This document shows, in pieces, positions 2,309 to 29,951 of a stretch of DNA of 29,951 bases. A model generated the notes under the pieces. That model did not search any database, was not told the DNA's origin, and saw nothing but the letters and a program-made list of their open reading frames with translations. The stretch spans positions 1 through 29,951 of the IMG/VR virus record IMGVR_UViG_3300013212_000027; one strand, 5' to 3'. The position numbers were made by a program, and so were the translations under genes. This DNA is from a virus. Each line of letters opens with the position of its first letter. The first letter of the stretch is position 1.

Positions 2309-2325
2309 TTTGTTTTAAATAAAAA

Positions 2326-2405
2326 CCTCTTTTAAAAATCTTTACTGGCAAGAGCAAAGCATTAAAAGAGGCGTTATAATTTTGTGAAAGTACCTTGCCG
2401 TACTT
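2326..2405 (-). promoter_or_regulatory. Kissing-loop leader RNA B
   Basis: In the leftward transcript hairpin 1 is AAGTAC[GGCAAG]GTACTT (2405-2388). Hairpin 2 is CCTCTTTTAA paired with TTAAAAGAGG (2371-2362 with 2335-2326). Inside it, CTTTGCT pairs with AGTAAAG (one G-U) and closes an apical loop CTTGCC (2352-2347). The two hexaloops are perfect complements. Five U residues follow hairpin 2, and the AUG lies 17 nt after it. The unrelated sequence at 29678-29764 has the same architecture. Confidence 0.75.
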
Positions 2406-2416
2406 GTTTTACTTTG

Positions 2417-2424
2417 CAAATATA
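2417..2424 (-). promoter_or_regulatory. Host-type promoter box for the 2308-937 operon
   Basis: TATATTTG on the minus strand matches TAnnTTTG. It lies 11 bp upstream of hairpin 1 of leader B. A TTTAG sequence upstream may serve as a weak -33 element. Confidence 0.6.
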
Positions 2425-22461: not shown

Positions 22462-22633
22462 AGTTCAATTTTGAGGGTAAAATTAAACAATTATTTTGAT
22501 ATGTGATGTCATAACAGATTAAAACATTTATAATCTCTTCGCGTGTGTATTTAAAGTGGCGTAATTTATCTTTAATTTTACCAACTGTTAACTTGCTTTC
22601 GTACATTTTTATTATTTCTTCTCGGTGTTTCAT
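22421..22633 (-). CDS. Small helical, possible DNA-binding protein (70 aa)
   Basis: A 70-aa basic protein, first gene before the sigma factor. Residues 1-45 ('EEIIKMYESKLTVGKIKDKLRHFKYTREEIINVL') look like a three-helix, winged-helix-like unit. The tail is less ordered. The 41-bp overlap with the sigma gene indicates coupled expression. It may regulate the sigma factor or its promoter. No family is certain. Confidence 0.65.
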   Translation of the reverse strand: MKHREEIIKMYESKLTVGKIKDKLRHFKYTREEIINVLICYDITYQNNCLILPSKLNYVNRTFQKAHSVG

Positions 22634-22814: not shown

Positions 22815-22822
22815 CAAATATA
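22815..22822 (-). promoter_or_regulatory. Host-type promoter box for the sigma and packaging operon
   Basis: TATATTTG on the minus strand fits TAnnTTTG. A TTG lies 25 bp upstream, longer than usual. It diverges from the plus-strand promoter at 23127-23157. Confidence 0.55.
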
Positions 22823-23126: not shown

Positions 23127-23157
23127 TTGTTTTATATAGATATGTTTCTTATTTTTG
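23127..23157 (+). promoter_or_regulatory. Host-type promoter of the HTH-ImmA gene
   Basis: TTG at 23127-23129, a 20-bp spacer, then TATTTTTG at 23150-23157. This is the best full match to the Bacteroidota consensus in the window and the only clear one on the plus strand. The ATG at 23178 follows 20 nt later. Confidence 0.75.
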
Positions 23158-23166
23158 TGCAAACAC

Positions 23167-23174
23167 TGATACAT
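23167..23174. promoter_or_regulatory. Putative operator, downstream copy
   Basis: TGATACAT repeats the site at 23102-23109 exactly, 65 bp away (about six helical turns), between the promoter and the start codon. The pair suggests looping autoregulation. Confidence 0.35.
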
Positions 23175-23177
23175 CTT

Positions 23178-24398
23178 ATGGAACACAACAGTCACGAGAG
23201 CGACGAAATATTAAAAAGACTTTTCGATCCCAAACCAGTAAAGGTTAAGGAATCATTAAGTGAGCTTTTTATTAACAGATTAGAAAGCCTTGAAATACCT
23301 AAAACAACAGCCTTAAACATTATGGGTATGTCTGCTAGAAGTTTAGATGGTATTATCACCGGAGAACAGAAGATGATTGATTATACACAACTTGTTAAAT
23401 TGGCTAATTTTCTTGGTATGCAATTAGATGAAGTTGTCAACTTATACGTAGAAAAAATACAAGATGTACATGCAGTTGGGTTAAATGATATAGTTTCTGG
23501 TGATTTAGTAAAGTTTATTAATGAAAAGTTTGATTTAGCAGAATTACGAAAAGTTGGTCTTATAAAAACGTTAACTGATTACACCGAGATTAATAATTCA
23601 ATTTGTAATTACTTTGGCTTAAGGTCGATTTTTGAATACAAAGAACCTAATATAAGTATAGCTTTCAGTGCCGGAAAGCGTGCTAAAAGTAATTGCAGTT
23701 TAAATAATTGGATATATTTAGCTGAGCAGAAATGTATAGAACTTAGAAACCCAAATATTTACAATAGAGAAAATTTGATTGAATATTTTCCTAGTATAAG
23801 ATGGCAATCAATGGATGTTGAAAATGGTTTAGTTAAGGTAATAAAACAACTTTTTAATATTGGAATTACGGTTGTTATTGTACCTTCTTTCCCATCAGTC
23901 CATGTTAGAGGTGCTACTTTTACAATTAATGATAAACCATGTATTGCTTTAACTGATTATGTTGGTTTCTATCCAACTTTATGGTTTGGTTTAATTCATG
24001 AACTTTATCATGTACTTTTTGATTGGGAAGATATAAAAATTTCTGACCCACATATTTCAGAAGAATTAGGATTAGATAGTATATCGCCATTAGAGAAAGC
24101 TGCGGATGACTTTGCACGTGAATATTTGTTTTCTAAATCTAAAACTATTGAATCTTCATTATTTATTAATAATGATAATCTAGTCAGAAGTTACGCTTTA
24201 AATAATAATATAGATCCAAGTTTTGTATATGTTTTTAATGCCTATGATGCTCCTAAAACAGATAAATACGCATGGGGAAGAGCAAAAAAACACAATCCAG
24301 ACATTAAGAAATTAAAGTCTAAGTTACAGCATGACTTTGAAAATGGCACATCATTTTCAGACCATATAAAAAAAATTAGAAATACAATTTACAGTTAA
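23178..24398 (+). CDS. XRE HTH + ImmA/IrrE-type metallopeptidase fusion
   Basis: A 406-aa protein. The N-terminal HTH spans residues ~25-95 ('LSELFINRLESLEIPKTTALNIMGMS...LVKLANFLGMQLDEVV'). The C-terminal zinc peptidase has 'HELYH' (274-278) and a third ligand Glu306 in 'EKAADDFA', all key residues kept. ImmA-type enzymes cut repressors, and Xre-COG2856 proteins have also been predicted as antitoxins. I start at 23178 because it follows a good promoter; the frame is open upstream to 23127. It runs against all other genes and adjoins a broken methyltransferase gene, so it is probably acquired. Confidence 0.85.
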   Translation: MEHNSHESDEILKRLFDPKPVKVKESLSELFINRLESLEIPKTTALNIMGMSARSLDGIITGEQKMIDYTQLVKLANFLGMQLDEVVNLYVEKIQDVHAVGLNDIVSGDLVKFINEKFDLAELRKVGLIKTLTDYTEINNSICNYFGLRSIFEYKEPNISIAFSAGKRAKSNCSLNNWIYLAEQKCIELRNPNIYNRENLIEYFPSIRWQSMDVENGLVKVIKQLFNIGITVVIVPSFPSVHVRGATFTINDKPCIALTDYVGFYPTLWFGLIHELYHVLFDWEDIKISDPHISEELGLDSISPLEKAADDFAREYLFSKSKTIESSLFINNDNLVRSYALNNNIDPSFVYVFNAYDAPKTDKYAWGRAKKHNPDIKKLKSKLQHDFENGTSFSDHIKKIRNTIYS

Positions 24399-29777: not shown

Positions 29778-29802
29778 AACCTTTTTTCAATATAAAAAAC
29801 AT

Positions 29803-29901
29803 TTTAAACCAAATATTTTTTTTTAAACTTTTTTAAACTTTTTTTAAACCTAGTTTTTCAATGATAGCAAAGGTTAACAGCGTTTTTAAACCAAGTTTAA
29901 A
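29803..29901. other. Origin-like iteron array, right arm
   Basis: TTTAAAC occurs at 29803, 29822, 29832, 29843 and 29885, with GTTTAAA at 29895. The middle three are spaced 10-11 bp. The orientation mirrors the GTTTAAA copies at 33-130. AAACCTAGTTT appears in both arms (near 29846 and 117). About 80 bp of nearly pure A/T separates the arms across the junction, as expected for a DNA-unwinding element. Confidence 0.5.
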
Positions 29902-29933: not shown

Positions 29934-29951
29934 ATAAAAATATAAATACTA
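29934..29951. repeat. Terminal direct repeat, right copy
   Basis: Identical to bases 1-18. It supports circular closure of the sequence within the origin-like region. Confidence 0.85.

Follow-up and report, generated by a model that had tools for sequence, protein, structure and literature searches.

Kissing-loop leader RNAs before early genes in phages of Flavobacteria: a phage-specific family of candidate transcription attenuators

Intrinsic (Rho-independent) terminators and leader attenuators place a hairpin and a U-tract between a promoter and its gene. ColE1 RNAI/RNAII and other plasmid antisense systems rely on loop-loop kissing over 6-8 bp, and the put RNA of HK022 is conserved in sequence and modifies polymerase. 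The leader of T4 gene 32 combines a pseudoknot with an A/U-rich unstructured region. The c4-type immunity RNA of phage P1 is grouped with the CI RNA of phage P4 as the same kind of leader RNA. P4 silences its own replication genes through RNA-directed premature termination (PMC4825925).

The locus compared with these systems here, designated leader B, lies in IMG/VR virus record IMGVR_UViG_3300013212_000027, of which a stretch of 29,951 nucleotides, referred to as the window, was analyzed. Sequence evidence makes it probable, at roughly 0.62, that leader B belongs to a phage-specific, cis-acting family of kissing-loop transcription attenuators. As in attenuators, a hairpin and a U-tract stand ahead of the gene, but the terminator loop bears an inner hairpin that kisses a 5' hairpin, and neither a leader peptide nor a T-box-like conserved sequence was seen. 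The likeness to ColE1-type systems consists in a kiss of 6-8 bp, a specificity diverse in sequence, and a replication gene; both loops, however, reside on one RNA, and TAnnTTTG boxes are not enriched on the opposite strand (15 inside leaders, with ~11 expected, and 9 downstream, with ~18 expected). HK022 put and other processive antitermination RNAs are likewise two-hairpin leaders of phage early genes, but the present family is not conserved in sequence. Leader RNA with internal complementary segments, putative premature termination before replication genes, and a replication primase 3' are shared with the P4 CI and P1 c4-type RNAs (PMC4825925 for P4), from which the family differs by its loop-to-loop pairing, by its apparently lytic phages, by the presence of several leaders with different kissing sequences in one phage, and by having no Rfam match. 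Membership in the P4 CI/C4 family was rejected on the one feature tested, a match to the described RNA family. Rfam searches at the gathering threshold found no family in the window or in the cultured phages mumin9-1 and tooticki6-1, and permissive searches (E<=5) returned nothing convincing. A literature search of openly accessible journal papers found no described flavobacterial phage leader of the kissing-loop terminator kind.

Direct reading of the minus strand confirmed that the promoter box, the 5' hairpin P1, the spacer, the terminator-like stem P2, the inner hairpin P3, the run of five U residues and the ATG each stand where a preliminary description of this DNA had placed them (Table 1), and a free-energy RNA fold recovered all three stems unprompted (z = -2.77). 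Leader A, in front of a primase-helicase gene, repeats the order of elements, as had been claimed, although its hexamer TGGTGG is part of a 12-nt loop, so that the match is one of layout and not of a strict hexaloop. The 83-aa ORF directly after leader B matched nothing in Pfam or PHROG, and two relatives of it were found in IMG/VR. Farther along the same gene run, the ORF at 1888-1379 (minus) encodes a pentapeptide-repeat protein (Pfam PF00805), and a different repeat protein is encoded immediately 3' of the leader on contig L001.

Table 1. Leaders A, B and C and the adjoining genes in the window. Loop sequences are in brackets; X and X' are the kissing sequences of P1 and P3.
Feature	Position	Strand	Sequence or remark
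Leader B, whole	2424-2309	minus	read directly
Leader B, -7 promoter box	2424-2417	minus	TATATTTG; read directly
Leader B, hairpin P1	2405-2388 (arms 2405-2400 / 2393-2388)	minus	AAGTAC[GGCAAG]GTACTT; fold and direct reading
Leader B, P1 loop X	2399-2394	minus	GGCAAG
Leader B, spacer	2387-2372	minus	TCACAAAATTATAACG; 16 nt; contains the recurrent A-rich and ATTA motif
Leader B, terminator-like stem P2	2371-2362 / 2335-2326	minus	CCTCTTTTAA/TTAAAAGAGG; 10 bp; encloses P3
Leader B, inner hairpin P3	arms 2359-2353 / 2346-2340	minus	CTTTGCT[CTTGCC]AGTAAAG; 7 bp, one G-U
Leader B, P3 loop X'	2352-2347	minus	CTTGCC; complementary to X
Leader B, U5 of U-tract	2325-2321	minus	P2 stem end to ATG 17 nt; ATG 2308
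83-aa ORF directly after leader B	2308-2057	minus	heads run with ORFs 2060-1881, 1888-1379, 1374-937
Leader C	935-862	minus	box 935-928, then H-type pseudoknot
Leader C, S1	911-907 / 897-893	minus	GATGC / GCATC
Leader C, S2	904-899 / 885-880	minus	GGTTAG / CTAACC
phrog_6706 ORF after leader C	861-184	minus	
Leader A, whole	29777-29659	minus	layout as leader B
Leader A, -7 box	29777-29770	minus	TATATTTG
Leader A, P1	29765-29740	minus	TGTAATG TTC[TGGTGG]GTT CATTACA; X 29755-29750
Leader A, P2	29720-29678	minus	ATCCTTTAGG/CCTAAAGGAT; internal loop GAGTA/GAAA
Leader A, P3	X' 29701-29696	minus	GTTG[CCACCA]CAAC; inside P2
Leader A, U-tract	29677-29674	minus	
Primase-helicase gene, 3' of leader A	29658-27385	minus	Prim-Pol + DUF3987

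Chance pairing in AT-rich DNA draws some support from the window itself: when the whole window was shuffled by dinucleotides, 27 of 1088 boxes (2.5%) were followed by a loosely defined form of the motif, so a single copy is only moderately surprising and two are only suggestive. With the relatives taken in, the observation is correct and stands far above chance. Upstream regions of primase homologues in IMG/VR provided 25 non-redundant leaders, leader B among them, each with a suitable box. Of these, 20 have the architecture, whereas shuffling the same leaders predicts 0.39, a comparison that is decisive on the question of chance. A scan of 1.92 Mb of phage loci that required the kiss, and in which leaders directly before an ORF were counted, returned 155 unique leaders with 74 different kissing sequences, compared with one in reversed sequence. 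Because the scan itself demands the kiss, that count is no independent evidence for it, and leaders were therefore selected separately, blind to any kiss, by four features alone: a promoter box, a 5' hairpin, a stem with a U tail and an ORF. Among the 94 leaders so chosen, 56 had loops complementary over at least 6 nt, where swapping loops among leaders gave a mean of 3.3; the 38 lacking a 6-nt loop match may in part reflect a crude automatic choice of hairpins. Under the kiss-blind criteria reversed genomes yielded zero candidates; a host-type genome yielded two in 800 kb, neither with a kiss. The scan found two leader matches with an ORF in 800 kb of host-type DNA. The family is supported as phage-specific. 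Chance is contradicted by each of the three comparisons above and by the covariation of orthologs described below; its probability is negligible, and a chance origin is already refuted for the leader family.

In an alignment of 16 orthologs of leader B, 93.3% of cells pair, as against 71.9% in shuffled sequences and 29-53% with slid partners, and changes on both sides occur at 23 of 30 pairs. P1 is paired in 96.9% of cells, with both sides changed at four of six pairs in A2, and P2 has both sides changed at all 11 of its aligned pairs in A2. The kiss helix is paired in 100% of the 16 orthologs, with double changes at two of six pairs; two complementary, covarying hairpin loops, the mark of a kissing-loop RNA, were thus found in the family. 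The preliminary term "fully covaried" describes these orthologs well but does not hold strictly between leaders A and B, which cannot be aligned. At L001:4393, on a contig with a neighboring gene 98% identical to that of the window, the internal loop and tail are those of leader B, yet P1, X, P2 and P3 all differ. Cultured phages give a comparable picture: at a site where mumin9-1, snusmum6-1 and mymlan6-1 carry the kiss pair GTGGAACG/CGTTCCAC, compensated pairs are found in tooticki6-1, lillamy9-1 and others (GTGAGACG/CGTCTCAC) and in morran9-1 (GTGAGAAG/CTTCTCAC). Most of these phages have a second leader before an HNH endonuclease gene. Polaribacter phage Freya_2 and Cellulophaga phage phi13:2 are further members; no convincing leader was found in Nonlabens phage P12024L (9 kb) or F. 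psychrophilum phage Fpv8 (27 kb). A shape kept while sequence changes almost completely between phages suggests that these leaders form a new family of RNA switches in phages.

The carriers are phages of marine and freshwater Flavobacteria, in which the leader separates promoter from start codon at many early genes, among them primase-helicase (Prim-Pol/DUF3987), RecT-like, ERF-like, SSB, HNH and helicase genes (family names at unannotated loci are our own reading). P1 begins 3-6 nt 3' of the box in most leaders and, given where the -7 box usually lies in Bacteroidota, would fall near the transcription start, at about +1. The commonest trinucleotide 22 nt upstream of the box is TTG (26 of 114 leaders). 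The X loop has 55% GC within DNA of 31% GC. The spacer, mostly 12-18 nt long, is A-rich and contains an ATTA motif (EM score 5.09, versus 3.3-3.7 in shuffled spacers); a conserved AAARAHATTA-like motif between P1 and P2 occurs in the spacers of about 100 leaders, across structural types. No coupling of spacer length to stem length was found with a scan that sometimes over-extended P1. Internal loops of P2/P3 fall into several recurring types (GAGTA/GAAA, TGAAAC/GTGGAT, TG(C)/ATTT), the first of which we take to resemble the loop E motif.

The region after P2 was profiled from its last G-C pair in 124 leaders chosen without a T filter. U makes up 56-91% at positions +2 to +11, the sequence is A-rich from +12, and the ATG follows at about 18 nt (mostly 8-25 nt). 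The leaders thus show a stable stem with G-C pairs and a U-tract directly after it, as intrinsic terminators do; some U-tracts are broken, and P2 stems are AT-rich. In F. johnsoniae genes, adenines usually occupy -14 to -11, and the stretch from -20 to +20 pairs little (PMC6847099). Because start regions there are A-rich and poorly paired, the stem and U-tract are no ordinary start signals; and because a conserved U-tract ends the second stem just where Flavobacteria have an A-rich, unpaired start region, a role as an intrinsic terminator close to the promoter is the likeliest.

Read along the sequence, the elements come in the order promoter box, P1, spacer, P2/P3 with the kiss, U-tract and start codon, and an attenuator so built might work as follows. 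An RNA starting a few nucleotides after the -7 box would have P1 at its 5' end. P1 and P3 would each fold on leaving the polymerase and would kiss before the 3' arm of P2 has been made, and the closed pseudoknot would then set the outcome: either P2 would form and stop transcription intrinsically at the U-tract, or polymerase would read through into the early gene. Since X, X' and the arms of P2 occupy separate positions and can be present together, we prefer a kiss that would steady P2 and favor termination, although this direction is a guess, as is the suggestion that relief may come from a factor of phage or host origin or from how fast transcription proceeds. Once formed, P2 would also occupy the ribosome-loading region.

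The leader moves as a cassette, because near-identical genes carry unrelated leaders. The primase genes of contigs L008 and L009 are 96.6% identical as DNA and their leaders 37%; L008 and L003 have a leader in common (89%) before genes 85% identical. BLAST finds homologous DNA on either side of the L008/L009 break, and similar leader scaffolds are found before unrelated genes. The phrase "modular phage riboregulator" is therefore apt as to structure and cassette, there being many leaders per phage group, phage-specific and swapped between near-identical genes, while its regulatory half is read from the terminator-like U-tract. Kissing sequences were shared over at least 5 nt by 0 of 30 leader pairs within a locus and by 5.8% between loci, a suggestive difference that is not significant. 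As leaders of one locus share no kissing sequence, a single common antisense RNA is unlikely, and the idea that the leaders control early operons together is not supported; a structure-specific protein common to several leaders is possible.

Lying so close to the AUG, P2 could instead affect translation or the stability of the RNA. The hairpin and pseudoknot might guard the mRNA end, or invite an RNase III cut, or P2 might block ribosome loading, with a U-tract that is no working terminator. The position of P1 at about +1 would suit such a role, as would that of the last G-C pair of P2, mostly within the distance from the AUG at which structure lowers initiation, but the conserved U-tract after the stem would then be needless, and it replaces the A-rich start motif; we consider this reading unlikely. 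Kissing loops joined to an expression platform also recall the layout of purine-type riboswitches, and the recurrence of internal loops such as GAGTA/GAAA might suggest a pseudoknot that controls termination by binding a small molecule. The internal-loop types are unrelated to one another, however, X is hypervariable, no aptamer core or binding pocket conserved across the family was found, and Rfam gave no match, so that a riboswitch is highly improbable.

Hypervariable X might instead define compatibility groups of co-infecting phages, as with the CI RNA of phage P4: a terminated leader of about 90 nt would accumulate and kiss nascent leaders of its own type in trans, causing them to terminate. 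Such self-antisense exclusion would fit the presence of both partners on one short RNA, the variability of X, the exchange of the leader as a unit between near-identical phages, the contrast in X sharing within and between loci, and the parallel with P4, strengthened by the position of leader A 5' of a primase-helicase. Against it, a kiss in cis should beat pairing in trans, some X (such as GGTCAG and GTGGTAG) are kept across many phages, and the within-locus difference, as said, is not significant. There is also no lysogen to protect, because the mumin phages are strictly lytic, without lysogeny genes (PMC7077304), and the primase occurs in just three MAG contigs of the genome collection; on these two grounds the leader-carrying phages look lytic, and a link to prophages or lysogeny was rejected on the second. 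We regard exclusion as improbable, and as still more doubtful the extended proposal that each early operon has its own RNA lock-and-key, which works across phages and not just inside one, terminated leaders silencing the early genes of any co-infecting relative whose kissing sequence is the same. If true, with cassettes swapped and diversified under selection, lytic phages would have an exclusion system made of RNA alone.

Leader C, in which the string GATGC-AA-GGTTAG-A-GCATC-TTAATTT-CTAACC leads into an A/U-rich stretch and an ATG, was rejected as a third family member, being an H-type pseudoknot without a terminator stem. In 20 orthologs 95.4% of its cells are paired, and both sides have changed at 10 of 12 pairs. 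The phrog_6706 protein encoded after it has an acidic tail, and the best structural matches of its low-confidence model include RB69 gp32 (Z 5.5) and many OB-fold SSBs; the ORF is a probable SSB gene, and the pair suggests autoregulation like that of T4 gene 32. The likeness to the T4 leader is confined to leader C (H-type pseudoknot, A/U-rich region, likely SSB gene) and does not extend to leader B, a kissing pair with a terminator stem.

Elsewhere in the window, a structured leader at 4200-4030 (minus) was rejected, its fold being no better than shuffles (z = -0.57). The window ends, 1-18 and 29934-29951, have ATAAAAATATAAATACTA in common; the 30-kb contig is therefore likely to be a whole phage genome, circular or permuted, in which case leaders B, C and A would each open one of three successive leftward units. 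Many GTTTAAAA repeats, which could be origin iterons or operator sites, lie at 1-130 and 29780-29900, upstream of leader A, and likewise upstream of related primases. At 22830-22660 (minus), TATATTTG at 22822 and an inverted repeat after it, TATTGARGATGCCT, precede two ORFs, at 22633 and 22461, the second of which resembles sigma-70 region 2; this is possibly another leader, of different design. A lone plus-strand gene, at 23127-24398, encodes an HTH and an ImmA/IrrE-like metallopeptidase by our reading of its sequence, precedes a 74-aa ORF, and is a possible repressor or defense unit.

Leader B thus represents an RNA family, apparently undescribed and widespread among Bacteroidota phages, attenuator-like in build, which sequence-based RNA searches would miss because shape and not sequence is conserved. 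Its presence in cultured Muminvirus, Lillamyvirus, Freyavirus and Baltivirus makes a role in the timing of early genes directly testable, and the family offers dozens of natural, mutually different kissing-loop terminators for studies of co-transcriptional folding and as orthogonal RNA parts.
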